From the NCBI RefSeq assembly GCF_027579695.1, contig NC_083587.1:7628001-7692000 (forward strand): DNA of 64,000 nt. Direction: 5' to 3'. The translations under genes were made by a program, and so were the position numbers. The stretch is from Neoarius graeffei (taxonomy: Eukaryota > Chordata > Actinopteri > Siluriformes > Ariidae). The notes under the pieces were generated by a model, which ran no database searches, was not told where the DNA came from, and saw only the letters and a program-made list of their open reading frames with translations. How positions within the stretch are numbered: position 1 is the stretch's first letter; each line of letters starts with the position of its first letter. Shown here piece after piece: positions 542 through 53,456 of the stretch.

Positions 542-662
542 ATTGAGGTATTTCACTCACGTGACCAAGTCATGTGATGCTGCCATTTTGGACGGCACGG
601 CTCGAATCAGTTTGAATGCGAGGAAGGCGACAAACGAAAAACATAAAAGAAAAAGGAGCGAG

Positions 663-1010
663 ATGCAGAAAACACCTTCACTATCCAGTGATGTAGGGCA
701 TTTACAGGGCGAGCAGAGGGAGAGGTATTTGCAAAAATTGAGGTTAGCAGGCTTAGAGAACGATGTTTACCCGCTTCCACCAGGATTGTTCACTGACGTA
801 CGGAAGTACACGAAGCCCTCATCTTTACCTGACTTCGGCCCACAGGATCTGTACACCTATGTCGTTAAAAACCCATCGCCATACACAGGTATTGATCTGA
901 AAGCGTATAAGAGTTTGGATGCCTACAAATATTTTGTGTCAGGCTGGGTAACATGCCTACATCAGTGGGTCGTCCCTGGAGCCGGTGGTCGCCATCTGAT
1001 TACAGCTAAG
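663..1010 (+). pseudogene. First exon of a SWIM/YqaJ-like family gene, carried inside the element
   Basis: This open exon encodes about 116 residues from the first in-frame ATG and ends exactly at an AAG/GTTTGT splice donor; the frame then runs into intron-like sequence. Visible features are a basic start, a coiled segment around GEQRERYLQKLRLAG, and the block LKAYKSLDAYKYFVSGWV near the end. I recognise that block from fish and invertebrate proteins that continue into a SWIM zinc finger and a YqaJ-type nuclease; neither downstream domain is present here. The frame is also open upstream through the element's end. The copy at 52985-53332 has the same 348-bp length, so the exon moves with the element. 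Whether it was captured from a host gene or is the 5' exon of a large transposon gene cannot be settled here. Confidence 0.55.
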
Positions 1011-1201
1011 GTTTGTTCACATTTTCATTTACTTTCGGTCCTCAGGATAAACAAAATGTTATTAAATGTCATTGAAATAACTTCTTAGTCTGTTGAGACA
1101 TGGCCCGTTATAAATTTGCTGTTACCAGGCAATGACCAAGAACTGTATTATTAGGGTCGGTGTCTGTGTTGTTGCAGTGTACTAGCAGCTAGCTGTTAGC
1201 A

Positions 1202-1882
1202 CTAGCTAATGTCAACAACATCGTAGCTAGTATGTTACTGTAGCAATATTTACGTTCAGTCATTTGGATGACTGTTAAAACCTTTCAGTCTCAAGTTTTT
1301 CCTTTACTGGATTTACTAGTTTACTGAGCTAGCGCGCTCGGCCAAACCGGGAGCCATCGCGCGCTCTCCGGCCGAGCCGGGAGCCATCGCGCGCTCTCCG
1401 GCCGAGCCGGGAGCCATCGCGCGCTCTCCGGCCGGGCCGGGAGCCATCGCGCGCTCTCCGGCCGGGCCGGGAGCCATCGCGCGCTCTCCGGCCGGGCCGG
1501 GAGCCATCGCGCGCTCTCCGGCCGGGCCGGGAGCCATCGCGCGCTCTCCGGCCGGGCCGGGAGCCATCGCGCGCTCTCCGGCCGGGCCGGGAGCCATCGC
1601 GCGCTCTCCGGCCGGGCCGGGAGCCATCGCGCGCTCTCCGGCCGGGCCGGGAGCCATCGCGCGCTCTCCGGCCGGGCCGGGAGCCATCGCGCGCTCTCCG
1701 GCCGGGCCGGGAGCCATCGCGCGCTCTCCGGCCGGGCCGGGAGCCATCGCGCGCTAGCTCAGTAAACTAGTAAATCCAGTAAAGGAAAAACTTGAGACTG
1801 AAAGGTTTTAACAGTCATCCAAATGACTGAACGTAAATATTGCTACAGTAACATACTAGCTACTGTTGTTGACATTAGCTAG
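1202..1882. repeat. Long inverted repeat (hairpin) with a minisatellite loop
   Basis: The arms are about 134 bp each and near perfect; for example CTTTCAGTCTCAAGTTTTTC on the left returns as its reverse complement on the right. The loop holds the 30-bp minisatellite. The same arms, with a different centre, form the palindrome at 52296-52795. Confidence 0.9.
1331..1755. repeat. 30-bp GC-rich minisatellite, about 14 copies
   Basis: Tandem units contain GGGAGCCATCGCGCGCTCTC. The central units are identical and the left-edge units differ by a base or two, as expected from recent expansion. It sits exactly in the hairpin loop. The long minus-strand open frame over it (MAPGPAGERA repeated) exists only because the 30-bp unit has no stop in that frame; I do not call it a gene. 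Confidence 0.95.
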
Positions 1883-1949
1883 CTTGCCGTCCAAAATGGT
1901 GGACACCGGGGCGTCACGTGACCCTGTGACGTCAGGTGAAATACCTCAA

Positions 1950-2657
1950 TAGATAGCTCAGGTAAGCTAATCAGTCAGCATACCGTAGCAAGCTACCAAA
2001 ACCTGAGGCCTAAATAACCAACCTACAAGACTGAATATGATAAATGATGGAAATAGTGGAAAAACTGGAAATAGTGAATGAAAATAAAAATGTACTGTTT
2101 TATTTATTGAGTCACCACACAGACGTACTCTCGTTGAATAAAGTGAGCTGAATGACCGCCAAACTGAGTTCGGCCAGGTTCTAACGTCATACCAAAACAA
2201 AATACATCACTGATTCCTTCACATTCAGAAAGGTTAAAAACCTTCATCATACGTTCAAAAACGTTCATCATAGTGTGGCACTGTATTATCTAATTCTCAT
2301 TGCTTATAACTATACACCTACCCGGTGGAGATGAGCTGGGAAACTGAAGACTGAAGGAACAGCTCCCTCTCTGATCCTGACTGTCTGACCTGTCCTGTCA
2401 AAATCCTCCATTCTGAAGTGTTCACTGCAGAGCATGGATGACGGAGTAGCAGAAAACCCTTCCCGTCGCACAGCTGTCTCCCACTGCTTTTTTCATGTCT
2501 TTAGTTTTGGGAAACCTACATAGTATGTGAAAAGTTAGCTAAGCAACTAACAACAATCAGCATAGTTATGAAGGAAATACTTCATTGTTTGGAGACAGGT
2601 TTCACCGAGCAGCTATTATGCGCGAGACTTCATATTAGCCACAAAGTCAGAAAAATC
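1950..2657. other. Non-coding stretch without recognised features
   Basis: AT-rich sequence with no supported gene. The last 17 bases, acaaagtcagaaaaatc, are the target duplication of the SINE that follows. Confidence 0.5.
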
Positions 2658-3179: not shown

Positions 3180-3302
3180 CTGTATAGACGCTATACCAGA
3201 GACGGTTGAAGAATCTCCACTTCGGCACATCCAATATGGCAGCGAGGATGACGTATGATTCTATGCAGAAGGCAGCGTCTATGTTTATATGTCTATGATA
3301 AA
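3180..3302 (-). repeat. Short dispersed repeat, copy 2
   Basis: Inverted, diverged partner of the repeat at 236-345; the shared blocks are CCATATTGGATGTG, ACGTCA and ATAGACG. It abuts the first satellite units. Confidence 0.35.
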
Positions 3303-6300
3303 GCTGACATGAATCACTTGATGCAGCTATAAAGCTAACATGAATCACTTGATGCAGCTATAAAGCTAACATGAATCACCTTGTGCAGTTATAAATCTAA
3401 CATGAATCACTTTGGGCAGCAATAAAGCTAACATGAATCACTTTATGCAGGTATAAAGCTAACATGAATCACTTTATGCAGCTATAAATCTAACATGAAT
3501 CACTTTGTGCAGCTGTAAAGCTAACATGAATCACTTTGTGCAGCTGTGAAGCTAACATGATTCACTTTGTGCAGCTGTAAAGCTAACATGAATCACTTTG
3601 TGCAGCTGAGAAGCTAACATGAATCACTTTATGCAGCTATAAAGCGATCATGAATTACTTTGTGCAGCTATAAAGCTAACATGAATCATTTTGTGCAGAT
3701 ATAAATCTAACATGAATCACTTTGGGCAGCAATAAAGCTAACATGAATCACATTGTGCAGCTGTAACGCTAACGTATCACTTTGTGCAGGTGTAAAGCGA
3801 ACATGAATCACTTTGTGCAGCTTTAAAGCTAACATGAATCACTTGGTGCATCTATAAAGCTAACATATCACTTTGTGCAGCTGGAATGCTAACACGAATC
3901 ACTTTGTGCAGCTATCAAGCGAACATGAATCACTTTATGCAGCCATAAAGCGAACATGAATCACTTTGTGCAGATGTAAAGCTAACATGAATCATTTTGT
4001 GCAGCTGTAAAGCTAACATGAATCACTTTGTGCAGATATAAATATAACATGAATCACTTTGGGCAGCAATAAAGCTAACATGAATCACTTTGTGCAGCTG
4101 TAAAGCTAACATGAATCACTTTATGCAGCTATAAAGCGAACATGAATTACTTTTGCAGCTATAAAGCGAACATGAATCACTTTGTGCAGATGTAAAGCTA
4201 ACATGTATCACTTTGTGCAGGGGGTAAAGCTAAAATGAATTACTTTGTGCAGCTATAAAGCTAACATGAATCAGTTTGTGCAGCTGTAAAGCTAACATGA
4301 ATCACTTTGTGCAGCTATAAAGCGAACATGAATCACTTTGTGCAGCTGTAAAGCTAACATGAATCATTTTGTGCAGCTGTAAAGCTAACATGAATCACTT
4401 TGTGCAGCTGTAAAGCCTACATGAATCACTTTGTGCAGCTGTAAAGCTAACATGAATCAGTTTGTGCAGCTGTAAAGTTAACATGAATCAATTTGTGCAC
4501 CTGTAAAGCTAAGATGAATCAGTTTGTGCAGCTGTAAAGCTAACATGAATCACTTTATACAGCTATAAAGCGAACATGAATTACTTTGTGCAGCTAGAAA
4601 GCTAACATTAATCACTTTGTGCAACTATAAATCTAACATGAATCACTTTTTGCAGCTGTAAAGCTAAAATGAATCACTTTGTGCAGCTGAAAAGCTAACA
4701 TGAATCCCTTTATGCAGCTATAAAGCTAACATGAATTACTTTGTGCAGCTATAAAGCTAACATGAATCACTTTGTGCAGCTGTAAAGCTAACATGAATCA
4801 CTTTATGCAGCTGTAAAGCTAACATGAATCACTTTATGCAGCTGTAAAGCTAACATGAATTACTTTGTGCAGCTATAAAGCTAACATGAATCACTTTGTG
4901 CAGCTATAAAACTAACATGAATTACTTTGTGCAGCTATAAAGCTAACATGAATCACTTTGTGCAGCTGTAAAGCTAACATGAATCACTTTATGCAGCTGT
5001 AAAGCTAACATGAATCACTTTATGCAGCTATAAAGCGATCATGAATTACTTTGTGCAGCTATAAAGCTAACATGAATCACTTTGTGCAGATATAAATATA
5101 ACATGAATCACTTTGGGCAGCAATAAAGCTAACATGAATCACTTTATGCAGCTATAAAGCTAACATGAATCACTTTGTGCAGCTGTAAAGCTAAAATGAA
5201 TCACTTTGTGCAGCTATAAAGCTAACATGAATCACTTTGTGCAGCTGTAAAGCTAACATGAATCACTTTATGCAGCTGTAAAGCTAACATGAATCACTTT
5301 ATGCAACTATAAAACTAACATGAATTACTTTGTGCAGCTATTAAAGCTAACATGAATCACTTTGTGCAGCTGTAAAACTAACATGTATCACTTTGTGCAG
5401 GTGTAAAGCTAACATGAATCAGTTTGTGCAGCTGTAAAGCGAACATGAATTACTTTGTGCAACTATAAATCTAACATGAATTACTTTGTGCAGCTGTAAA
5501 GCTAAAAGGAATCACTGTGCAGCTGTAAAGCTAACATGAATCACTTTATGCAGCTATAAAGCTAACATGAATCACTTTGTGCAGCTGTAAAACTAACATG
5601 TATCACTTTGTGCAGGTGTAAAGCTAACATGAATCAGTTTGTGCAGCTGTAAAGCTAATATAAATCACTTTATGTAGCTATAAAGCTAACATGAATTACT
5701 TTGTGCAGCTGTAAAGCTAACATGAATCACTTTGTGCAGCTGTAAAGCTAAAATGAATCACTTTGTGCAGCTGTAAAGCTAACATGAATCACTTTATGCA
5801 GCTATAAAGCTAACATGAATTGTTTTGTGCAGCTTTGAAGCTAACATGAATCACTTTGTGAAGCTGTAAAGCTAACATGAATCACTTTATGCAGCTATAA
5901 AGCCAACATGAATCACTTTATGCAGCTATAAAGTTAAAATGAATGACTTTGTACAGCTGTAAAGCTAACATGAATCACTTTATACACCTGTAAAGCTAAC
6001 ATGAATCACTTTGTGCAGCTGTAAAGCCTACATGAATCACTTTGTGCAGCTGTAAAGCTAACATGAATCAGTTTGTGCAGCTGTAAAGTTAACATGAATC
6101 AATTTGTGCACCTGTAAAGCTAAGATGAATCAGTTTGTGCAGCTGTAAAGCTAACATGAATCACTTTATACACCTGTAAAGCGAACATGAATTACTTTGT
6201 GCAGCTAGAAAGCTAACATTAATCACTTTGTGCAACTATAAATCTAACATGAATCACTTTTTGCAGCTGTAAAGCTAAAATGAATCACTTTGTGCAGCTG

Positions 6301-6446
6301 AAAAGCTAACATGAATCCCTTTATGCAGCTATAAAGCTAACATGAATTACTTTGTGCAGCTATAAAGCTAACATGAATCACTTTGTGCAGCTGTAAAGCT
6401 AACATGAATCACTTTATTCAGCTATAAAGTAAACATGAATCACTTT

Positions 6447-6501
6447 CATGTTAGCTTTATAGCTGCACAAAGTGATTCATGTTAGCTTTATAGCTGCACA
6501 A
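6447..6501 (-). repeat. Two satellite units in inverted orientation, first occurrence
   Basis: Inside the otherwise head-to-tail array, about 55 bp read as the reverse complement (TTAGCTTTATAGCTGCACAA). The same inverted segment with the same flanks recurs about 2,477 bp downstream, so the inversion came before a block duplication. Confidence 0.9.
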
Positions 6502-8923
6502 TCACTTTGTGCAGCTGTAAAGCTAACATGTATCACTTTATACAGCTGTAAAGCCAACATGAATCACTTTGTGCAACTATAAACTTAACATGAATCACTT
6601 TATTCAGCTATAAAGTGAACATGAATCACTTTGTGCAGCTATAAAGCTAACATTAATCACTTTGTGCAGCTATAAAGCTAACATGAATCATTTTGTGCAG
6701 ATATAAATCTAACATGAATCACTTTGGGCAGCAATAAAGCTAACATGAATCACATTGTGCAGCTGTAACGCTAACATGTATCACTTTGTGCAGGTGTAAA
6801 GCGAACATGAATCACTTTGTGCAGCTTTAAAGCTAACATGAATCACTTTGTGCATCTATAAAGCTAACATATCACTTTGTGCAGCTGGAATGCTAGCACG
6901 AATCACTTTGTGCAGCTATCAAGCGAACATGAATCACTTTATGCAGCCATAAAGCGAACATGAATCACTTTGTGCAGATGTAAAGCTAACATGAATCATT
7001 TTGTGCAGCTGTAAAGCTAACATGAATCACTTTGTGCAGATATAAATATAACATGAATCACTTTGGGCAGCAATAAAGCTAACATGAATCACTTTGTGCA
7101 GCTGTAAAGCTAACATGAATCACTTTATGCAGCTATAAAGCGAACATGAATTACTTTTGCAGCTATAAAGCGAACATGAATCACTTTGTGCAGATGTAAA
7201 GCTAACATGTATCACTTTGTGCAGGGGGTAAAGCTAAAATGAATTACTTTGTGCAGCTATAAAGCTAACATGAATCAGTTTGTGCAGCTGTAAAGCTAAC
7301 ATGAATCACTTTGTGCAGCTATAAAGCGAACATGAATCACTTTGTGCAGCTGTAAAGCTAACATGAATCATTTTGTGCAGCTGTAAAGCTAACATGAATC
7401 ACTTTGTGCAGCTGTAAAGCCTACATGAATCACTTTGTGCAGCTGTAAAGCTAACATGAATCAGTTTGTGCAGCTGTAAAGTTAACATGAATCAATTTGT
7501 GCACCTGTAAAGCTAAGATGAATCAGTTTGTGCAGCTGTAAAGCTAACATGAATCACTTTATACAGCTATAAAGCGAACATGAATTACTTTGTGCAGCTA
7601 GAAAGCTAACATTAATCACTTTGTGCAACTATAAATCTAACATGAATCACTTTTTGCAGCTGTAAAGCTAAAATGAATCACTTTGTGCAGCTGAAAAGCT
7701 AACATGAATCCCTTTATGCAGCTATAAAGCTAACATGAATTACTTTGTGCAGCTATAAAGCTAACATGAATCACTTTGTGCAGCTGTAAAGCTAACATGA
7801 ATCACTTTATGCAGCTGTAAAGCTAACATGAATCACTTTATGCAACTATAAAACTAACATGAATTACTTTGTGCAGCTATAAAGCTAACATGAATCACTT
7901 TGTGCAGCTGTAAAGCTAACATGAATCACTTTATGCAGCTGTAAAGCTAACATGAATCACTTTATGCAGCTATAAAGCGATCATGAATTACTTTGTGCAG
8001 CTATAAAGCTAACATGAATCACTTTGTGCAGATATAAATATAACATGAATCACTTTGGGCAGCAATAAAGCTAACATGAATCACTTTATGCAGCTATAAA
8101 GCGAACATGAATTACTTTTGCAGCTATAAAGCTAACATGAATCACTTTGTGCAGTTATAAATCTAACATGAATCACTTTGTGCAGCTGTAAAGCTAAAAT
8201 GAATCACTTTGTGCAGCTATAAAGCTAACATGAATCACTTTGTGCAGCTGTAAAGCTAACATGAATCACTTTGTGCAGGTGTAAAGCTAACATGAATCAG
8301 TTTGTGCAGCTGTAAAGCTAATATAAATCACTTTATGTAGCTATAAAGCTAACATGAATTACTTTGTGCAGCTGTAAAGCTCACATGAATCACTTTGTGC
8401 AGCTGTAAAGCTAAAATGAATCACTTTGTGCAGCTGTAAAGCTAACATGAATCACTTTATGCAGCTATAAAGCTAACATGAATTACTTTGTGCAGCTGTA
8501 AAACTAACATGTATCACTTTGTGCAGCTGTAAAGCTAACATGAATCACTTTGTGCAGCTGTAAAACTAACATGTATCACTTTGTGCAGCTGTAAAGCTAA
8601 CATGAATCACTTTATGCAGCTATAAAGCTAACATGAATTACTTTGTGCAGCTTTAAAGCTAACATGAATCACTTTGTGCAGCTGTAAAGCTAACATGAAT
8701 CACTTTGTGCAGCTGTAAAGCTAACATGAATCACTTTATGCAGCTATAAAGCCAACATGAATCACTTTATGCAGCTATAAAGTTAAAATGAATGACTCTG
8801 TACAGCTGTAAAGCTAACATGAATCACTTTATGCAGCTGTAAAGCTAACATGAATCACTTTGTGCAGCTATAAACTTAACATGAATCACTTTATTCAGCT
8901 ATAAAGTAAACATGAATCACTTT

Positions 8924-8978
8924 CATGTTCGCTTTATAGCTGCACAAAGTGATTCATGTTAGCTTTATAGCTGCACAA
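8924..8978 (-). repeat. Two satellite units in inverted orientation, second occurrence
   Basis: Near-identical duplicate of the inverted segment at 6447-6501, including the flanking TTTATTCAGCTATAAAGTAA variant. Confidence 0.9.
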
Positions 8979-11900
8979 TCACTTTGTGCAGCTGTAAAGC
9001 TAACATGAATCACTTTATGCAGCTATAAAGCGAACATGAATTACTTTTGCAGCTATAAAGCGAACATGAATCACTTTGTGCAGATGTAAAGCTAACATGT
9101 ATCACTTTGTGCAGGTGTAAAGCTAAAATGAATTACTTTGTGCAGCTATAAAGCTAACATGAATCAGTTTGTGCAGCTGTAAAGCTAACATGAATCACTT
9201 TGTGCAGCTATAAAGCGAACATGAATCACTTTGTGCAGCTGTAAAGCTAACATGAATCACTTTGTGCAGCTGTGAAGCTAACATGAATCACTTTGTGCAG
9301 CTGTAAAGCCTACATGAATCACTTTGTGCAGCTGTAAAGCTAACATGAATCAGTTTGTGAAGCTGTAAAGTTAACATGAATCAATTTGTGCACCTGTAAA
9401 GCTAACATGAATCAGTTTGTGCAGCTGTAAAGCTAACATGAATCACTTTATACAGCTATAAAGCGAACATGAATTACTTTGTGCAGCTAGAAAGCTAACA
9501 TGAATCACTTTTTGCAGCTGTAAAGCTAAAATGAATCACTTTGTGCAGCTGTAAAGCTAACATGAATCACTTTGTGCAACTATAAATCTAACATGAATCA
9601 CTTTTTGCAGCTGTAAAGCTAAAATGAATCACTTTGTGCAGCTGTAAAGCTAACATGAATCACTTTGTGCAACTATAAATCTAACATGAATCACTTTTTG
9701 CAGCTTTAAAGCTAAAATGAATCACTTTGTGCAGCTGTAAAGCTAACATGAATCCCTTTATGCAGCTATAAAGCTAACATGAATTACTTTGTGCAGCTAT
9801 AAAGCTAACATGAATCACTTTGTGCAGCTGTAAAGCTAACATGAATGACTTTGTGCAGCTGTAAAGCTAACATGAATCACTTTATGCAGCTGTAAAGCTA
9901 ACATGAATCACTTTATGCAGCTATAAAGCGATCATGAATTACTTTGTGCAGCTATAAAGCTAACATGAATCACTTTGTGCAGATATAAATATAACATGAA
10001 TCACTTTGGGCAGCAATAAAGCTAACATGAATCACTTTATGCAGCTATAAAGCGAACATGAATTACTTTTGCAGCTATAAAGCTAACATGAATCACTTTG
10101 TGCAGTTATAAATCTAACATGAATCACTTTGTGCAGCTGTAAAGCTAACATGAATCACTTTATGCAGCTATAAAGCTAACATGAATCACTTTGTGCAGCT
10201 GTAAAACTAACATGTATCACTTTGTGCAGGTGTAAAGCTAACATGAATCAATTTGTGCAGCTGTAAAGCTAACATGAATCACTTTGTGCAGCTGTAAAGC
10301 TAAAATGAATCACTTTGTGCAGCTGTAAAGCTAACATGAATCACTTTGTGCAGGTGTAAAGCTAACATGAATCAGTTTGTGCAGCTGTAAAGCTAATATA
10401 AATCACTTTATGTAGCTATAAAGCTAACATGAATTACTTTGTGCAGCTGTAAAGCTCACATGAATCACTTTGTGCAGCTGTAAAGCTAAAATGAATCACT
10501 TTGTGCAGCTGTAAAGCTAACATGAATCACTTTATGCAGCTATAAAGCTAACATGAATTACTTTGTGCAGCTGTAAAACTAACATGTATCACTTTGTGCA
10601 GCTGTAAAGCTATCATGAATCACTTTGTGCAGCTGTAAAACTAAGATGTATCACTTTGTGCAGGTGTAAAGCTAACATGAATCAGTTTGTGCAGCTGTAA
10701 AGCTAATATAAATCACTTTGTGCAGCTGTAAAGCTAACATGAATTACTTTGTGCAGCTGTTAAGCTAACATGAATCACTTTGTGCAGCTGTAAAGCTAAA
10801 ATGAATCACTTTGTGCAGCTGTAAAGCTAACATGAATCACTTTATGCAGCTATAAAGCTATCATGAATTACTTTGTGCAGCTTTAAAGCTAACATGAATC
10901 ACTTTGTGCAGCTGTAAAGCTAACATGAATCACTTTATGCAGCTATAAAGCCAACATGAATCACTTTATGCAGCTATAAAGTTAAAATGAATGACTTTGT
11001 ACAGCTGTAAAGCTAACATGAATCACTTTATGCAGCTGTAAAGCTAACATGAATCACTTTATGCAGCTATAAAGCTAACATGAATTACTTTGTGCAGCTT
11101 TAAAGCTAACATGAATCACTTTGTGCAGCTGTAAAGCTAACATGATTCACTTTATGCAGCTATAAAGCCAACATGAATCACTTTATGCAGCTATAAAGTT
11201 AAAATGAATGACTTTGTACAGCTGTAAAGCTAACATGTATCACTTTATACAGCTGTAAAGCCAACATGAATCACTTTGTGCAACTATAAAGCTAACATTA
11301 ATCACTTTGTGCAGCTATAAAGCTAACATGAATCACTTTGTTCAGCTGTAAAGCTAACATGAATCACTTCGTGCAACTATAAAGCTAACATTTATCACTT
11401 TATACAGCTATAAATCTAACATGAATCACTTTGTGCAGCTATAAAGCTAACATGAATCACTTTGTGCAACTATGAAGCTAATCTGTATCACTTTGTGCAG
11501 CTATCAAGCGAACATCAATCACTTTGTGCAGCTATCAAGCGAACATGAATCACTTTATACAGCTATGAGGTGAACATGAATCACTTTGTGCAGCTGTAAA
11601 GCTAGCATGTATCACATTGTGCAGGTGTAAAGCTAACATGAATCACTTTGTGCAGCTGTAAAGTTAACATGAATCACTTTGTGCAGCTGTAAAGCTAATA
11701 TGAATCACTTTATGCAGCTGTAAAGCTAACATGAATCACTTTGTGCAGCTGTAAAACTAACATGTATCACTTTGTGCAGGTGTAAAGCTAACATGAATCA
11801 CTTTGTGCAGCTGTAAAACTAACATGTCTCACTTTGTGCAGGTGTGAAGCTAACATGAATCACTTTGTGCAGCTATAAAGATAACATGAATCACTTTGTG

Positions 11901-13900
11901 CAGCTATAAAGCTAACGTGTATCACTTTTTGCAGCTATCAAGCAAACATGAATCACTTTGTGCAGTGATCAAGCGAACATGAATCACTTTGTGCAGCTAT
12001 AAAGCGAACATGTATCACTTTGTGCAGGTGTAAAGCTAACATGAATCAGTTTGTGCAGCTGTAAAGCTAACATGAATCACTTTGTGCAGCTATAAAGCTA
12101 ACATGAATCACTTTGTGCAGCTGTAAAGCTAACATGAATCACTTTGTGCAGCTGTCAAGCTAACATGAATCATTTTGTGCAGCTGTCAAGCTAACATGAA
12201 TCACTTTGTGCAGCTGTAAAACTAACATGAATCACTTTGTGCAGCTGTAAAGCAAACATGAATCATTTTGTGCAGCTGTAAACCTAACATGAATCACTTT
12301 GTGCAGCTGTAAAGCTAACATGAATTATTTTGTGCAGCTATAAAGCTAACATGAATCACTTTGGGCAGCAATAGAGCTAACATGAATCCCTTTATGCAGC
12401 TATAAAGCTAACATGAATCACTTTATGCAGCTATAAATCTAACATGAATCACTTTGTGCAGCTGTAAAGCTAACATTAATCACTTTATGCAGCTAAAAAG
12501 CTAACATGAATAACTTTGTGCAGCTAAAAAGCTAACATGAATCACTTTGTGCAGCTGTAAAGCTAACATGAATCACTTTATGCAGCTATAAAAGAACATG
12601 AATCACTTTGGGCAGCAATAAAGCTAACATGAACACTTTGTGCAGCTGTAAAGCTAACATGAATCACTTTATTCAGCTATAAAGCTAACATGAATCACTT
12701 TGTGCAGCTATAAAGCTAACATGAATCGCTTTGTGTAGCTGTAAAGCTAACATGAATCACTTTATGCAGCTGTAAAGCTAACATGAAACACTTTGTGCAG
12801 CTATAAAGCTAAAATGAATCACTTTGTGCAGCTATAAAGCTAACATGAATCACTTTATTCAGCTATAAAGTGAACATGAATCACTTTGTGCAGCTATAAA
12901 GCTAACATTAATCACTTTGTGCAGCTATAAAGCTAACATTTATCACTTTATACAGCTATAAAGCGAACATGAATCACTTTGTGCAGCTGTAAAGCTAACA
13001 TGAATCACCTTGTGCAGTTATAAATCTAACATGAATCACTTTATGCAGCTATAAATCTAACATGAATCACTTTATGCAGCTATTATAACATGAATCACTT
13101 TGTGCAGCTGTAAAGCTAACATGAATCACTTTGTGTAGCTGTAAAGCTAACATGAATCACTTTGTGCAGCTGTAAAGCTAACATGAATCACTTTGTGCAG
13201 CTATAAAGCGATCATGAATTACTTTGTGCAGCTATAAAGCTAACAGGAATCATTTTGTGCAGATATAAATCTCACATGAATCACTTTGGGCAGCAATAAA
13301 GCTAACATGAATCACATTGTGCAGCTGTAACGCTAACATGTATCACTTTCTGCAGGTGTAAAGCGAACATGAATCACTTTGTGCAGCTGTAAAGCGAACA
13401 TGAATCACTTTGTGCAGCTGTAAAGTTAACATGAATCACTTTGTGCAGCTGTAAAGCTAATATGAATCACTTTATGCAGCTGTAAAGCTAACATGAATCA
13501 CTTTGTGCATCTACAAAGCTAACATATCACTTTGTGCAGCTGGAATGCTAACACGAATCACTTTGTGCAGCTATCAAGCGAACATGAATCACTTTGTGCA
13601 GCTATAAAGCGAACATGAATCACTTTGTGCAGATGTAAAGCTAAGATGTATCACTTTGTGCAGGTGAAAAGCTAAAATGAATTACTTTGTGCTGCTTAAA
13701 GCTAACATGAATCAGTTTGTGCAGCTGTAAAGCTAACATGAATCACTTTGTGCAGCTATAAAGCGAACATGAATCACTTTGTGCAGCTGTAAAGCTAACA
13801 TGAATCATTTTGTGCAGCTGTAAAGCTAACATGAATCACTTTGTGCAGCTGTAAAGCCAACATGAATCACTTTGTGCAGCTGTAAAGCTAACATGAATTC

Positions 13901-15505
13901 CAACCCTGATTCCAAAAAAGTTGGGACAAAGTACAAATTGTAAATAAAAACGGAATGCAATAATTTACAAATCTCAAAAACTGATATTATATTCATAATA
14001 GAACATAGACAACATATCAGATGTTGAAAGTGAGACATTTTGAAATTTCATGCCAAATATTGGTTCATTTGAAATTTCATGACAGCAACACATCTCAAAA
14101 AAGTTGGGACGGGGGCAATAAGAGGCTGGGAAAGTTAAAGGTACAAAAAAGGAACAGCTGGAGGACCAAATCGCAACTCATTAGGTCAATTGGCAATAGG
14201 TCATTAACATGACTGGGTATAAAAAGAGCATCTTGGAGTGGCAGCGGCTCTCAGAAGTAAAGATGGGAAGAGGATCACCAATCCCCCTAATTCTGCGCCG
14301 ACAAATAGTGAAGCAATATCAGAAAGGAGTTCAACAGTGTAAAATTGCAAAGTGTTTGAACATATCATCATCTACAGTGTATAATATCATCAAAAGATTC
14401 AGAGAATCTGGAAGAATCTCTGTGTGTAAGGGTCAAGGCCGGAAAACCATACTGGGTGCCCGTGATCTTCGGGCCCTTAGACGGCACTGCATCACATACA
14501 GGCATGCTTCTGTATTGGAAATCACAAAATGGGCTCAGGAATATTTCCAGAGAACATTATCTGTGAACACAATTCACCGTGCCATCCGCCGTTGCCAGCT
14601 AAAACTCTATAGTTCAAAGAAGAAGCTGTATCTAAACATGATCCAAAAGTGCAAACGTCTTCTCTGGGCCAAGGCTCATTTAAAATGGACTGTGGCAAAG
14701 TGGAAAACTGTTCTGTGGTCAGACGAATCAAAATTTGAAGTTCTTTATGGAAATCAGGGACGCCGTGTCATTCGGACTAAAGAGGAGAAGGACGACTCAA
14801 GTTGTTATCAGCGCTCAGTTCAGAAGCCTGCATCTCTGATGGTATGGGGTTGCATTAGTGCGTGTGGCATGGGCAGCTTACACATCTGGAAAGACCCCAT
14901 CAATGCTGAAAGGTATATCCAGGTTCTAGAGCAACATATGCTCCCATCCAGACGACGTTTCTTTCAGGGAAGACCTTGCATTTTCCAACATGACAATGCC
15001 AAACCACATACTGCATCAATTACAGCATCATGGCTGCGTAAAAGAAGGGTCCGGGTACTGAACTGGCCAGCCTGCAGTCCAGATCTTTCACCCATAGAAA
15101 ACATTTGGCGCATCATAAAACGGAAGATACGGCAAAAAAGACCTAAGACAGTTGAGCAACTAGAATCCTACATTAGACAAGAATGGGTTAACATTCCTAT
15201 CCCTAAACTTGAGCAACTTGTCTCCTCAGTCCCCAGACGTTTACAGACTGTTGTAAAGAGAAAAGGGGATGTCTCACAGTGGTAAACATGGCCTTGTCCC
15301 AACTTTTTTGAGATGTGTTGTTGTCATGAAATTTAAAATCACCTAATTTTTCTCTTTAAATGATACATTTTCTCAATTTAAACATTTGATATGTCATCTA
15401 TGTTCTATTCTGAATAAAATATGGAATTTTGAAACTTCCACATCATTGCATTCCATTTTTATTTACAATTTGTACTTTGTCCCAACTTTTTTGGAATCGG
15501 GGTTG
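13901..15505 (+). mobile_element. Tc1-like transposon (family A) inserted in the satellite
   Basis: The terminal inverted repeats are roughly 200 bp, beginning CAACCCTGATTCC on the left and ending GGAATCGGGGTTG on the right, with an inner repeat of the motif AAAAAAGTTGGGAC. The right flank is TA; the left flank now reads TC, so one target base pair appears changed. Satellite units run up to both ends. A second copy of the same family lies at 28584-30197. Confidence 0.93.
14263..15285 (+). CDS. Tc1/mariner transposase, apparently full length
   Basis: Cut-and-paste transposase of the Tc1 group; it binds the inverted repeats and inserts at TA. I chose the start MGRGSPIPL, which gives 340 residues, the usual Tc1 length; the frame is open 18 codons further upstream. 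The N-terminal half holds two helix-turn-helix segments ([18 protein letters not shown] and the RALRRHC region). The catalytic core shows LWSDESKFE (first D), [10 protein letters not shown] (second D) and, 34 residues on, [11 protein letters not shown] with the E, that is, a DD34E triad. There is no stop or frame break. This suggests fairly recent insertion, although one target base differs. Activity cannot be judged from sequence alone. Confidence 0.92.
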
Positions 15506-15507
15506 TA

Positions 15508-18500
15508 TTTTGTGCAGCTATAAAGCGAACATTAATTACTTTGTGCAGCTGTAAAGCTAACATGAATCAGTTTGTGCAGCTGTAAAGCTAACATGAATCA
15601 CTTTGTGCACCTGTAAAGCTAACATGAATCAGTTTCTGCAGCTGTAAAGCTAACATGAATCACTTTATACAGCTATAAAGCGAACATGAATTACTTTGTG
15701 CAGCTATAAAGCTAACATGAATCACTTTGTGCAACTATAAATCTAACATGAATCACTTTTTGCAGCTGTAAAGCTAAAATGAATCACTATGTGCAGCTGT
15801 AAAGCTAAAATGAATCACTTTGTGCAGCTGTAAAGCTAACATGAATCCCTTTATGCAGCTATTAAGCTAACATGAATTACTTTGTGCAGCTATAAAGCTA
15901 AAAATGAATCACTTTGTGCAGCTGTAAATATAACATGAATCACTTTGGGCAGCAATAAAGCTAACATGAATCACGTTGTGCAGCTATAAAGCGAACATGA
16001 ATTACTTTGTGCAGCTATAAAGCTAACATGAATCACTTTGTGCAGCTGTAAAGCTAACATGAATCATTTTGTGCAGCTGTAAAGCTAACATGAATCACTT
16101 TGTGCAGATATAAATATAACATGAATCACTTTGGGCAGCAATAAAGCTAACATGAATCACTTTGTGCAGCTATAAAGCTAACATGAATCACTTTATGCAG
16201 CTATAAAGCTAACATGAATCACTTTATGCAGCTATAAAGTGAACATGAATTACTTTTGCAGCTATAAAGTTAACATGAATCACTTTGTGCAGCTGTAAAG
16301 CTAACATGAATTACTTTATGCAGCTATAAAGCTAACATGAATCACTTTGTGCAGCTGTAAAACTAACATGTATCACTTTGTGCAGGTGTAAAGCTAACAT
16401 AAATCACTTTATGCAGCTATAAAGCGAACATGAATTACTTTGTGTAGCTATAAAGTTAACATGAATCACTTTGTGCAGCTATAAAGGTAACATGAATTAC
16501 TTTGTGCAGCTATAAAGTTAACATGAATCACTTTGTGCAGCTGTAAAGCTAACATGAATCACTTTGTGCAGCTATAAACCTTACATGAATCACTTTGTGC
16601 AGCAATAAAGCTAACATGAATTTCTTTGTGCAGCTATAAAGAGAACATGAATCACTTTGTCCAGCTATAAAGCTAACATGAATCACTTTGTGCAGCTATG
16701 AAGCTAACATGAATCACTTTATGCAGCTAGAAAGCGAACATGAATCACTTTGTGCTGCTATAAAACTAACATTAATCACTTTGTGCAGCTATAAAGTTTA
16801 CATGAATCACTTTGTGCAGCTGTAAAGTGAACATGAATCACTTTTTGCAGCTATAAAGCTAACATGAATCACTTTATACAGCTATAAAGCAAACATGAAT
16901 CACTTTGTGCAGCTATAAAGAGAACATGAATCACTTTGTGCAGCTGTAAAGCTAACATGAATCACTTTGTTCAGCTGTAAAGCTAACATGTATCACTTTG
17001 TGCAGGTGTAAAGCTAACATGAATTACTTTGTGCAGCTGTAAAGCTAACATGAATCACTTTGCTCAGCTATTAAGCTAACAGGAATCACTTTGTGCAGCT
17101 GTAAAGCTCACATGAATCACTTTGTGCAGCTATAAAGTTAACATGAATCATTTTGTGCAGCTATAAAGCTAACATGAATCACTTTATGCAGCTATAAAGC
17201 GAACATGAATCACTTTGTGCAGCTGTAAAGCTAACATGAATCACTTTGTGCAACTATAAAGCTAACATGTATCACTTTGTGCAGGTGTAAAGCTAACATG
17301 ATTCACTTTGTGCAGCTGTAAAGCTAACATGAATCACTTTATACAGCTATAAAGTGAACATGAATCACTTTGTGCACCTATAAAGCTAACATGTATCACT
17401 TTGTGCAGGTGTAAAGCTAACATGATTCACTTTGTGCAGCTGTAAAGCTAACATGAATCACTTTGTGCAGCTATAAAGCTAACATGAATCACTTTGTGCA
17501 GCTGTAAAGCTAACATGAATTATTTTGTGCTGCTGTAAATTCAACATGAATCACTTTGTGCACCTATAAAGTTAACATGAATCACTTTGTGCAGCTATTA
17601 AGCTAACATGAATCACTTTTTTCAGCTATAAAGCTAAAATGAATCACTTTGTGCAGCTATTAAGCTAACATGAATCACTTTGTGCAACTTTAAATCTAAC
17701 ACGAATCACTTTTTGCATCTATAAAGCAATTTGAATCACTTTTTGCAACTATAAAGCGAATTTGAATCATTTTGTGCAGCTATAAAGCTAACATGAATCA
17801 CTTTGTGCAGCTATAAAGCTAACATGAATTACTTTGTGCAGCCATAAAGCTAACATGAATTACTTTGTGCAGCTATGAAGCTCACATGAATTACTTTGTG
17901 CAGCTATAAAGTTAACATGAATCACTTTGTGCAGCTGTAAAGCTAACATGAATCACTTTGTGCAGCTATAAACCTTACATGAATCACTTTGTGCTGCAAT
18001 AAAGCTAACATGAATTTCTTTGTGCAGCTATAAAGAGAACATGAATCACTTTGTCCAGCTATAAAGCTAACATGAATCACTTTGTCCAGCTATGAAGCTA
18101 ACATGAATCACTTTATGCAGCTAGAAAGCGAACATGAATCACTTTGTGCAGGTGTAAAGCTAACATGAATTACTTTGTGCAGCTGTAAAGCTAACATGAA
18201 TCACTTTGCTCAGCTATTAAGCTAACAGGAATCACTTTGTGCAGCTATAAAGCGAACATGAATCACTTTGTGCAGCTATAAAGCTAACATGAATCACTTT
18301 GTGCAGCTGTAAAGCTAACATGAATTATTTTGTGCTGCTGTAAATTCAACATGAATCACTTTGTGCACCTATAAAGTTAACATGAATCACTTTGTGCAGC
18401 TATGAAGCTAACATGAATCACTTTTTTCAGCTATAAAGCTAACATGACTCACTTTGTGCAGCTATTAAGCTAACATGAATCACTTTGTGCAACTTTAAAT

Positions 18501-18957
18501 CTAACACGAATCACTTTTTGCATCTATAAAGCAATCTGAATCACCTTGTGCAACTATAAAGTGAACATGAATCACTTTTTGCATCTATAAAGCTAATTTG
18601 AATCACTTTGTGCAGCTATAAAGCTAACATGAATCACTTTGTGCAGCTATAAAGTTAACATGAATCACTTTGTGCAGCTGTAAAGCTAACATGAATCACT
18701 TTGTGCAGCTATAAAGTTTACATGAATCACTTTGTGCAGCTGTAAAGTGAACATGAATCACTTTTTGCAGCTATAAAGCTAACATGAATCACTTTATACA
18801 GCTATAAAGCAAACATGAATCACTTTGTGCAGCTATAAAGAGAACATGAATCACTTTGTGCAGCTATAAAGAGAATATGAATCACTTTGTCCAGATATGA
18901 AGTTAACATGACTCATTTTGTGCAGCTATAAAGCTAAAATGACTCATTTTGTGCATG
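15508..18957. repeat. 31-bp satellite array, right part (about 110 units)
   Basis: Continuation of the satellite beyond the Tc1 insertion, with more diverged units toward the right end (AGAGAACATG, AGTTTACATG, GCAATTTGAATC variants). Internal block duplications are again visible, for example the GCTCAGCTATTAAGC variant near 17060 and 18210. Confidence 0.96.
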
Positions 18958-21433: not shown

Positions 21434-22118
21434 TGCCGCTTTTCCACTACAAACGCGGCTGAGCCGTGCCGTGCTGAGTTGGGCTGAGTCGAGCTGAGTG
21501 GGGCTGTTGGAGTTGCATTTCGACTACAACCGCGCTGAACCGTGCTGGCTGGAAGTGGGTGGACACATTGGGTGGAGTTAGCGAAAGTGGGTGGACGTCA
21601 GGTGATGTCGTTAAGCAGTGCAAACAGTGACATCAGTGAGCTTTTAAGCGGTAGTCTCGTGACCCGAATAGTAAACAATAAACATGGAGGACATGGAGTC
21701 GTTAGTGTTGCTGGTCTTGGTTCTGTGGCTTGTTGTCACCGACAACGCCAACAGATACTGGCAAGAGCGTATAGATGAGGCGAGGCGCATAAGGCTTCAT
21801 AATTCTCGTAATTCTCCTCCTTCCGGGTTTGCAGTGTTTACAGATCCCAGCGTACTCGCGGGGCGTGTGTGGGCATGTGAGGACACGCCTCCTCACCAAT
21901 CAGTGCACAGGGGAGTGTCTGCTCACGCCCCCAGCCTCACTCGGCTCGGTTTGGCTCGCTTCAGCCCCACTCCAAAACGGTGCGAGTTTTAGGGGCTAAG
22001 CAGGGCTGAAGCGAGCTGAGTCGTGCTGTTTTTTGGTAGTCGAAACACAAGCCGTGTCGGGCTGAAGTGAGCTGAAGCGAGCTGAAGTGAGCTGAAAAAG
22101 GGTAGTGGAAAAGGGCCA
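21434..22118 (+). mobile_element. PIF/Harbinger-type MITE, copy 1
   Basis: The ends TGCCGCTTTTCCACTAC and GTAGTGGAAAAGGGCCA are inverted repeats flanked by the 3-bp duplication TTA, typical of PIF/Harbinger. Subterminal regions are rich in GAGCTGA/GGGCTGA repeats. An internal open stretch starting MEDMESLVLLVLVLW looks like the N-terminus of the accessory protein found in fish Harbinger elements, but no transposase is present. A related, longer copy lies inverted at 34744-36011. Confidence 0.85.
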
Positions 22119-31233: not shown

Positions 31234-31431
31234 CTATTGCTTCTGTATATATTTTTTTTTGTGGCAAACCACACAAATGCAAGCGCCTGGAATGTTTAGC
31301 TTTTTGCACCATGAACTAAATGGCTTTCCGTTTTCACCTATTTCGTACAGCCAAGCCCACCTCCACTTGTTTTTTACACCTTTATCGATGGCAGACACAT
31401 CAGTGCCTTCTTTCATGTAAAGCACATCCAT
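31234..31431 (-). pseudogene. Possible N-terminal zinc-finger exon of element X's transposase
   Basis: Sixty-five residues include VSAIDKGVKNKWRWAWLYEI, SSWCKKLNIPGACICVVCHK: a tryptophan-rich start and a CxxC, like the N-terminal BED-like segments of fish transposase proteins. The expected following residues are not found. Assignment is by resemblance only. Confidence 0.4.
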
Positions 31432-32090
31432 GCTGCCGAAACCAAAAGCAGAATGACATGCTCCTCTATGCTCGACGTCAATATAGAAAAAAGTTTGGAT
31501 CTTCGCTTAAATTAAAATTAAAATTATAATTTGACCTTACTTTGTGTTGAATACGACTTCAAAAACAATTCAAGATTTTATTAAGAGAAATATTGTGGCC
31601 AACACGAGTGTTAAGTTACCTAAAAGATCGCGTGAAGTTGGCTGCTATCTACTTTGCGTTCGTTCTCATTTTCCTCCATCATTTCATAGGCCAGAAACAG
31701 ATGTTTTGATGTAATTTAACTTAGTAGACTATGATTATTATTTAATCATGGGCGCCGCCAGGGGGGGAAAGGTTAGAACAATTCTAGGGGCCCAGCACTG
31801 CCATGGGGCCCTTTAAGGGGCTGATAATATGCTTTTAATGATTTTAATAAGACTTTTGAAATAACAACAATGCAATATTCCATCTGGTAAAATGAGCTAA
31901 TTGAACAAGGTTGTCTATTTCTTGAGTTCTTCAACATATTGTCATTTAACCCTCCCCCTTTTGCGAAATGGTACAGTCCAGTTCTGGTAGAAGCGCGATG
32001 CATTAAATCTGTGTGCTGATCAGTGCAATGCTACTTGCTGCTGTGTCGCGGTGCAGCAGCCAGCCAGCCAGCAGTGGAGTGCGTACAGTC

Positions 32091-33939: not shown

Positions 33940-35239
33940 GTAAGCAGCAATACAACCCATAAATGCTTTAGGATTGAAGTTTTTAACGAGCGAGCGCCAT
34001 ATACAGTTTGCTAGATTAAAGTGTTGCTAATAATGGACACCAGTCAAGTGTTTGACATGGTTACGTGTGTGGAATGTTCACACGTTCTAAACCACTGGGT
34101 ATTTAAATCTTTACTGTATGAGTAGTGTAAATATTGTTCTTCATGTTTACATTTGGATTGGTTGATATTGCTGGTAAAAATCTATCTTGAATATTGAATA
34201 TTTTATTGTTCATGGATATTTGAATATTTGCTTTGACAATAAATGAGTGCTGCCTAAAAGAAAGCATAAACTCTCAGTGTATTTCTTGCAGTGCATTATG
34301 TTGTATGAAATAACTGCTGCCTAGTTATTAATCAAGGCAGGAAATTGTGATTACTGATGTTTTCTGGAACTCTCTGGCACTGAAGTAGCCTATAAAGAAT
34401 GTATATCTTATAAATCCATACAGATACAGTGATGCATGCAAGTTGTGTCAACACATGAATGAATGAACTCCATACTAAGTAGCCCAATTTTGCACACTTG
34501 AATGAAGAAGAGTTCAAAGCAGTGTGTTAAATAATGCTGGTTATGTTTATTTACAGTCAACTCAATAATAACTGCTGCATCATTCACCATTTTATTTCCT
34601 TTTTTCTTTTTATGTATGGGCTTATATTGGCCTGAATTATGTCTGGGCTTATACTGCCATCTACTGGTCAAGCAACATAAAAGTGTAAATTAGAAAACAA
34701 GGTCAAAAACTCCTGGTCCATGGAGGGGCAACCAATAGTCTAATGGCCCTTTTCCACTACCCTTTTTCAGCTCACTTCAGCTCGCTTCAGCTCACTTCAG
34801 CCCGACACGGCTCGCGTTTCGACTACCAAAAACCAGCACGACTCAGCTCGTTTCAGCCCTGCTTAGCCCCTAAAACTCGCACCGTTTTGGAGTAGGGCTG
34901 AAGCGAGCCAAACCGTGCCGACTGAGGCTGGGGGCGTGAGCAGACACTCCCTTGTGCACTGATTGGTGAGGAGGAGTGTCCTCACATGCCCACACACGCC
35001 CCGTGAGCGCGCTGGGATCTGTAAACACCGCAAACCCGGAAGGAGAATAATTATGAATTACGAGAATTTCTGAAGCCTTATGCGCCTCGCCTCATCTATA
35101 CGCTCTTGCCAGTATCTGTCCGCGTTGTCGGTGACAACAAGCCACAGCACCAAGACCAGCAACACTAACGACTCCATGTCCTCCATGTTTATTGTTTACT
35201 ATCCTGGTCGTGAGACTACTGCTTAAAAGATCACTGAAT

Positions 35240-51716: not shown

Positions 51717-52228
51717 GTATTTTCCAGACTATACGTCGCTCCAGAGTTTAAGTCGCATCAGCCAAAAAATGCATTATGAAGACAAAAAAAACATATATAC
51801 GTCGCACCGGACTACAAGTCGCACTTTTTTGAAGGGTTATTCTATCCATAGAATCTGTGATTCTATCTGAAAAGCGGCGCGTGGTTACTGCACAACTGCA
51901 TCGTTTATTTAATAAACGAACAGCTGAGCAGTGATAACGCGCCCTTTGCCCTGTAAGTAGCCTAGTCTGATTATTTTAAATATCTACTACTATCTTTAAT
52001 ACTATCACTATCGTTATTACTAATAGCCTATATTATTATTATAACTAATATTAGTAGCCTATTACTGATGCATTAATCAGTTTGCTTTTAGAATATTTTT
52101 ACTGGTAGGGCTTATTATCGCCCCATGGCTCTTTCATCTTTGTTATTAAAGCTGTAGTCATCATCAAGGAGTGTCATTCTTCATTTTTGTTGAATTTTAT
52201 TTCATCAAATCAGAGGTCAAGTAGGCTA
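51717..52228. repeat. DNA-transposon end (CGTATTTTCC type) and unassigned flank
   Basis: Starts CCGTATTTTCCAGACTATAC after TA, with repeated ACGTCGC/AAGTCGC blocks to about 51830, a terminal pattern common in vertebrate MITEs. No second end was found. The remainder is AT-rich without a gene. Confidence 0.5.
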
Positions 52229-52295
52229 TTGAGGTTTTTCACCTGACGTCACAGGGTCACGTGACGCCCCGGTGTCCGCCGTTTTGAAGGTCAAG

Positions 52296-52795
52296 CTAGC
52301 TAATGTCAACAACATCATAGCTGGTATGTTACTGTAGCAATGTTTACATTCAGTCATTTGGATGACTGTTGAAACCTTTCAGTCTCAAGTTTTTCCTTTA
52401 CTGTATTTACTAGTTTACTGTAATTATGATCCGGCAGCTATTTACACCGGATCCAGTGTAAATAGCTGCCAGAGCGCGCTCCGGCTTGCTCTCCCTCAAA
52501 TTAAGCAGCACGCTCCGGCTTGCTCCCGGAGTGCTCCGGCCGAGGTTCCGGAGCGCGCTTCGGCTTGCTCCCGGAGTGCGTGCTGCTTAATTTGAGGGGG
52601 AGCAAGCCGGCGCACGCTCCGGCAGCTATTTACACTGGATCTGGTGTAAATAGCTGCTGGATCATAATTACAGTAAACTAATAAATACAGTAAAGGAAAA
52701 ACTTGAGACTGAAAGGTTTTAACAGTCATCCAAATGACTGAAAGTAAACATTGCTACAGTAACATACCAGCTATGATGTTGTTGACATTAGCTAG
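52296..52795. repeat. 500-bp palindrome
   Basis: Arms of about 220-235 bp pair almost perfectly around a centre near 52545; the outer ~135 bp match the arms of the hairpin at 1202-1882. The inner part has GGATCCAGTGTAAATAGCTG and its reverse copy and CTCCGGCTTGCTCCC repeats. Two open frames on opposite strands are mirror images of each other, which shows the symmetry. Confidence 0.93.
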
Positions 52796-52984
52796 TGCTA
52801 ACAGCTAGCTGCTAGTACACTGCTACAACACAGACACCGACCCTAATAACAGTTCTTGGTCATTGCCTGGTAACAGTAAATTTATAACGGGCCATGTCTC
52901 AACAGACTAAGAAGTTATTTCAATGACATTTAATAACATTTTGTTTATCCTGAGGACCGAAAGTAAATGAAAATGTGAACAAAC

Positions 52985-53332
52985 CTTAGCTGTAATAAGA
53001 TGGCGACCACCGGCTCCAGGGACGACCCACTGATGTACGCATGTTACCCAGCCTGACACAAAATATTTGTAGGTATCCAAACTCTTATACGCTTTCAGAT
53101 CAATACCTGTGTATGGCGATGGGTTTTTAAAGACATAGGTATACAGATCATGTGGGCCGAAGTCAGGTAAAGACGAGGGCTTTGTGTACTTCTGTACATC
53201 AGTGAACAATCCTGGTGGAAGCAGGTAAACGTCGTTCTCTAAGCCTGCTAACCTCAATTTTTGCAAATACCTCTCCCTCTGCTCGCCCTGTAAATGCCCT
53301 ACGTCGCTGGATAGTGAAGGTGTTTTCTGCAT
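52985..53332 (-). pseudogene. First exon of a SWIM/YqaJ-like family gene, copy 2
   Basis: Same 348-bp exon as 663-1010, from MQKTPSLSSDVGHLQ to the AAG/GTTTGT donor, with only a few replacements (YPLPPG to YLLPPG, DVRKY to DVQKY, YVVKN to YVFKN, CLHQW to CVHQW). The open frame extends upstream through the element end. Both copies keep the frame and the donor. Confidence 0.6.
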
Positions 53333-53456
53333 CTCACTCCTTTTTCTTTTATGTTTTTCGTTTGTCGCCTTCCTCCCATTCAAACTGATTCGAGCCGTGA
53401 CGTCCAAAATGGCAGCCTCACATGACTTGGTCACGTGGGTGAAAAACCTCAATAGG

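Follow-up and report, generated by a model that had tools for sequence, protein, structure and literature searches.

MITE-like derivatives of DNA transposons are internally deleted, keep their own termini, lack a transposase and reach high copy numbers, and typical MITEs are shorter than the 1.0-1.9 kb met with below. The ISL2EU group is part of the PHIS (PIF/Harbinger-ISL2EU-Spy) DNA transposons (PMC4482050, PMC9179366); an AT target duplication has been reported for it, and its usual traits include ends that begin with GG and a target context of A-AT-T (PMC4482050). Pack-TIR and Pack-TYPE elements are non-autonomous and carry, between terminal repeats, an exon captured from a non-transposon gene (PMC8277862, PMC8903248).

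The window analysed here, the whole stretch of 64,000 nucleotides from Neoarius graeffei, contains two elements (copies 1 and 2) that are non-autonomous and very probably derive by internal deletion from an ISL2EU-group DNA transposon. They represent a defective cut-and-paste transposon of high copy number, with the first coding piece of its parent's second gene, and as such are largely ordinary. As far as the consulted parts of the published descriptions go (PMC4482050, PMC9179366), its likeness to ISL2EU lies in the AT target duplication of both copies, in a relative (L070, with other outermost bases) that has a THAP, HTH and DDE transposase and a second gene with YqaJ, and in another relative (L069) that shares the TGAGG terminus and exon 1 and carries YqaJ, the window copies keeping only exon 1 of that gene. 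Unlike ISL2EU elements proper, copies 1 and 2 are non-autonomous; the ends of the TGAGG family begin with TG and not with the usual GG (although L070 itself begins with GG), and the target is mostly T-AT-A, compared with the reported A-AT-T (PMC4482050). The second gene here also contains a SWIM-like motif and a PHD-like finger, both absent from the published descriptions in the parts consulted (PMC4482050, PMC9179366). The family resembles MITE-like derivatives in having its own termini, no transposase, a high copy number and a left end colinear with a coding relative, but its members are mostly 1.0-1.9 kb among the copies seen, carry a whole exon with a putative donor, and include a palindrome whose loop varies and is often GC-rich. 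With Pack-type elements it shares non-autonomy, terminal repeats and an exon aboard, whereas the exon here is the transposon's own. Among the matches listed for the ISL2EU and animal Pack-type literature, covered as titles and abstract openings, we found no published account of a TGAGG-ended family.

Two insertions in the window

Copy 1 (544-1948) and copy 2 (52230-53451) belong to one transposon family and were inserted separately; each has terminal repeats of 13 bp and an AT duplication. Their parts are as follows.

542..543, no strand: AT target duplication, left of copy 1 (flank reading)
544..1948, plus: copy 1, non-autonomous ISL2EU-type element, 1,405 bp (terminal repeats, AT both sides, alignment to L069)
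544..556, plus: left terminal inverted repeat of copy 1, TGAGGTATTTCAC (terminal-pattern search)
663..1010, plus: exon 1 of the transposon's own YqaJ gene, copy 1, open, 348 bp, 116 codons
1011..1016, plus: putative splice donor GTTTGT, copy 1 (six bases identical in L070 and all 30 aligned copies)
1011..1280, plus: 5' part of intron 1, copy 1 (resemblance to L069 stops a little short of L069 exon 2)
1202..1338, plus: palindrome arm 1, copy 1 (begins as intron sequence in its native direction)
1347..1755, plus: minisatellite in the copy 1 loop, 30-bp GC-rich unit, 13.6 units (overlaps the start of arm 2)
1749..1882, minus: palindrome arm 2, copy 1, inverted (134 of 134 aligned positions equal arm 1)
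1936..1948, minus: right terminal inverted repeat of copy 1 (terminal-pattern search)
1949..1950, no strand: AT target duplication, right of copy 1 (flank reading)
52228..52229, no strand: AT target duplication, copy 2
52230..53451, minus: copy 2, non-autonomous ISL2EU-type element, 1,222 bp (in opposite orientation to copy 1)
52296..52513, plus: palindrome arm, copy 2
52578..52795, minus: partner palindrome arm, copy 2 (96% complementary)
52985..53332, minus: exon 1, copy 2, open (96% identity to the copy 1 exon)
53452..53453, no strand: AT target duplication, copy 2

The preliminary description had noticed two copies with the same order of parts, and this order holds: termini, a 348-bp open exon ending at AAG/GTTTGT, and a palindrome toward the other end. 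The termini it placed at 543-556 and 1936-1949, and at 52229-52242 and 53439-53452, are present, but the mobile units are best read one base further in at each end, as 544-1948 and 52230-53451. When up to two mismatches are allowed, the terminal pattern matches the window five times against 0.60 expected, and four of the five matches are the termini of the two copies; the fifth (42237-42250) has two mismatches and no partner, and may be due to chance. The loop of copy 2 differs in sequence from the minisatellite loop of copy 1, neither copy has space for another gene beside the palindrome, and a Pfam search of the long exon frame of both copies returned no match. Elsewhere in the window, positions 3298-18955 are a 15.7-kb tandem array of about 506 copies of a 31-bp unit (81% matches).

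Abundance of the termini and target duplication

Exact TTGAGGTATTTCAC sites number 6,015 in the 2.34-Gb genome (3,050 forward and 2,965 reverse), compared with 14 and 9 for the reversed control. Seventy of the 100 listed sites, all on contig C1, form 35 inward-facing pairs less than 3 kb apart (641-1984 bp, median 1,230), and these same 100 sites include no outward-facing and no same-strand neighbours within 3 kb (0 and 0); the remaining 30 are without a partner at the exact pattern. The 35 inward pairs bear out the supposition of the preliminary description that the terminal repeats recur together at other sites. Exon 1 is found in all of the first five C1 elements listed by terminus (L001, L002/3, L004/5, L006 and L008).

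The coding interior is rare in comparison with the 6,015 termini. The YqaJ-side DNA occurs in at least four places at 95% identity or more (C7, C6, C8 and C5, with 40 of 1,207 candidates scored), and the transposase-side DNA gave three long matches at 94% or more (C8, C6 and C5, the last interrupted). Pieces of the transposase exon measuring 64-69 bp lie at seven further places, on C22 (L076), C5, C1, C18, C14, C13 and C7. L076, the only one of these short-piece places that was read, has a TGATCC-type end together with transposase-side sequence, and looks like another deletion derivative.

An AT on both sides flanks 28 of 31 elements, copies 1 and 2 among them, while in the other three AC or GT replaces AT on one side. 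Among L009-L038, L009 is copy 1 itself, and this sample excludes five loci without both recognizable ends (L014, L021, L023, L028 and L035); L025 was additionally omitted from the arm comparison and the exon alignment, which leaves 30 elements for these. A single AT stands at the element-free sites corresponding to L029, L037, L006 and L008, whose joined flanks match relatives at 86-98%. Two further spanning matches were not counted as clean element-free sites, namely L033 (two matches within a tandem repeat, with GT replacing AT at one end) and L036 (82%, with GC at the site). Three segments of the window (21623-21920, 34942-35237 and 31334-31645) are other interspersed repeats that represent element-free sites for the L006 and L008 insertions elsewhere. 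The base before AT is T in 25 of the 31 elements and the base after it is A in 26. We considered TA as the target duplication and rejected it, as TA/TA is found in 21 of 31 elements against 28 for AT/AT and the element-free sites show one AT.

Coding relatives of the elements

Loci L069-L075 were reached through a YqaJ profile search. Bases 1-737 of copy 1 align with L069 at 95% in one block of 747 columns with small gaps, TGAGG terminus included, and what the two have in common is the terminal repeat, the leader, exon 1 and most of intron 1; the similarity stops just before exon 2 of L069. Behind its TGAGG left terminus and exon 1, L069 continues with a SWIM-like exon, a YqaJ domain (PF09588, 6.2e-16) and a PHD-like finger. 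The SWIM-like exon contains a CxC...CxH pattern, picked out by eye, that we take to be a SWIM-like motif, and Pfam returned no SWIM family match in the L069, L070 or L055 proteins. The guess of the preliminary description that the exon comes from a SWIM/YqaJ gene is thus confirmed by Pfam for YqaJ, and by eye only for SWIM. It had also proposed a genome-wide search for the element ends and a comparison of exon and intron with the YqaJ gene, and these yielded abundant ends and 95% colinearity with L069.

L070, a two-gene element of 6.7 kb, has terminal repeats GGACCCTTTTCA and is flanked by AT at both ends; in it, a gene with THAP, HTH_Tnp_4 and DDE_Tnp_4 domains (PF05485, PF13613 and PF13359) faces the YqaJ gene. 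The order of the latter is as in L069: exon 1, SWIM-like exon, YqaJ (PF09588) and PHD-like finger. The THAP/HTH/DDE transposase is thus seen in a close relative whose outermost bases, GGACCCTTTTCA, differ from TGAGG. L069 shares about 95-97% identity with L070, L071 and L072 in the interior of the YqaJ gene; around exon 1 its identity with L070 is only 89%. Despite these nearly identical interiors the outermost ends differ, with TGAGG in L069, GGACCC in L070 and TGACCC in L072, which suggests replacement or rapid change of ends. Between the right ends of copy 1 and L070, similarity is limited to short stretches.

Exon 1, the SWIM-like exon and YqaJ keep a constant order and strand in the 18 loci that match all three queries, out of 38 searched; these represent 17 distinct places (L064 is the same as L073), at E values up to 0.05, and the SWIM-like match of L065 reaches only 0.042. 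For many of the remaining 20 loci the sequence covered extends just 1.5 kb from the YqaJ match and may not reach as far as exon 1. In L055 one frame of 619 amino acids runs from the C-terminal portion of the exon-1 region through the SWIM-like motif and YqaJ, and ends in a cysteine pattern that by eye is PHD-like; Pfam matched only YqaJ and a viral alkaline exonuclease in it.

Among the loci examined we saw no complete autonomous copy with TGAGG ends and both genes. L069 combines a TGAGG left end with the YqaJ half, its similarity to relatives breaks off inside the element, and a search with the transposase-side DNA gave no transposase match near it. Past this break, positions 757-1092 of L069 (minus strand) hold a THAP frame (PF05485, 1.8e-11) on the same strand as exon 1, whereas the THAP gene of L070 faces the YqaJ gene. 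Also beyond the break, an open frame at 994-2013 has the look of a retroviral envelope gene and may be one.

Origin and fate of exon 1

The two window copies are separated by 50 kb and their left 783 bp are 96% alike, as one segmental duplication would leave them. This reading is exceedingly improbable: the flanks differ, each copy has its own AT on both sides, the loops differ and thousands of termini lie elsewhere. The copies are therefore separate insertions, and the segmental duplication that the preliminary description had named as a counter-case does not apply. Its first reading was Pack-type capture, in which a transposon takes up an exon of a host gene and then spreads it. An open exon with an intact donor, set between terminal inverted repeats in many copies, has just this appearance, and Pack-TIRs exist in animals (PMC8277862). 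However, the coding relative L069 has the exon at the identical place behind the identical terminus, and the gene in question is the YqaJ gene that ISL2EU elements are described as having in the part of the literature consulted (PMC4482050), so that capture is highly unlikely. Judged from the alignment, exon 1 belongs by origin to the YqaJ gene of the transposon itself and is no stolen host gene; capture goes unsupported because terminus, exon and intron 1 form one similarity block with L069. The other possibility raised at the outset, that the element arose by deletion from an autonomous transposon and that the exon is the first coding exon of the latter, fits the result, except that the transposon, then taken to be an unknown one, belongs to the ISL2EU group.

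The exon could also be kept by selection, if a truncated N-terminal protein of the YqaJ gene (116 residues and about 25 more read from the intron) helped or blocked transposition. ATG and donor are kept in 30 of 30 aligned copies, and the 23 copies picked by protein match have changed almost solely at third positions (0/2/38 exon changes at codon positions 1/2/3), a pattern that is expected because these copies were chosen for an intact protein. The seven elements outside that choice, namely copies 1 and 2 (open, and singled out in the preliminary description) and five C1 elements taken by position, show 39 exon changes distributed 15/7/17, in a comparison whose non-picked sample is small and whose majority base comes mostly from protein-picked copies. 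Three of the five frames taken by position are broken, by an internal deletion, a frameshift and a stop respectively. One 643-bp element (L077) is without about 206 bp of exon 1, and two further C1 pairs nearly equal it in length, the only property compared. Set against these observations, a selected product is very unlikely, and exon 1 appears to be without clear constraint in the copies taken by position. Rates of change in the seven elements are 1.65% for exon, 1.10% for intron and 2.84% for leader, the exon changing no more slowly than the intron, with the palindrome-arm columns omitted on account of poor alignment (6.5% and 4.1% apparent change).

The open frame itself probably reflects the youth of the copies, and many frames may still await decay: over the left 800 bp or so, the 30 copies differ by 2.6% on average and the closest pair by 0.25%. 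Stops occur in only two of 150 rows, a rarity due to the choice of these rows by protein score (the best 150 of 21,666 first-look candidates). That the frame stays open through the terminal repeat, as the preliminary description had stated, is true of both window copies (498-1088 and 53569-52907) but is not a general trait. Of 30 exon matches with assigned loci, 12 have frames of at most 169 amino acids, and in L069 (169 aa) and L070 (165 aa) the exon frame closes inside the element.

In copy 1, both palindrome arms match intron 1 of L069 in their outer portion. Since the 66 bp outside the right arm are common to 22 of 30 elements, the inverted duplication probably arose, to judge from the shared sequence, in the ancestor of most sampled copies, with variation of the loop (34-866 bp in 23 elements with comparable arms) probably following later. 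Arm homogenization was considered and set aside: arms differ by 1.8% within elements and by 2.4-2.6% between them, a gap too small to claim gene conversion because subfamily structure could cause it. These means rest on 23 of the 30 elements, since L011, L027, L029, L032, L033, L036 and L038, with 14-33 comparable positions, were dropped.

Read inward from the left end, the window copies follow the coding relative through the terminal repeat, the leader and exon 1 into most of intron 1; where the relative goes on with its coding interior, they have an inverted copy of the intron side and a variable GC-rich loop, and then the right terminal repeat. After excision, faulty gap repair or template switching probably produced both the internal deletion and the inverted duplication, a route familiar by analogy from other DNA transposons, and the elements would be moved by a transposase made elsewhere that recognizes their ends. 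We infer that exon 1 is a passenger that stems from the native left end and is decaying under no clear constraint.

Once inserted in sense orientation into a transcribed gene, a donor that lacks its acceptor could trap splicing. There is a slim chance that such insertions, each bringing a dispersed donor and an in-frame exon with no acceptor, give rise to fusions starting with the N-terminal part of the YqaJ gene, and that the fusions or the truncated protein might regulate ISL2EU transposition. These results remove an apparent case of animal gene capture and establish the parentage of the elements as a non-autonomous ISL2EU family with its parent's YqaJ exon 1 at the left end. They also provide an abundant and fairly recent set of insertions, as the closest pair indicates, in which exon trapping by a dispersed donor is testable.
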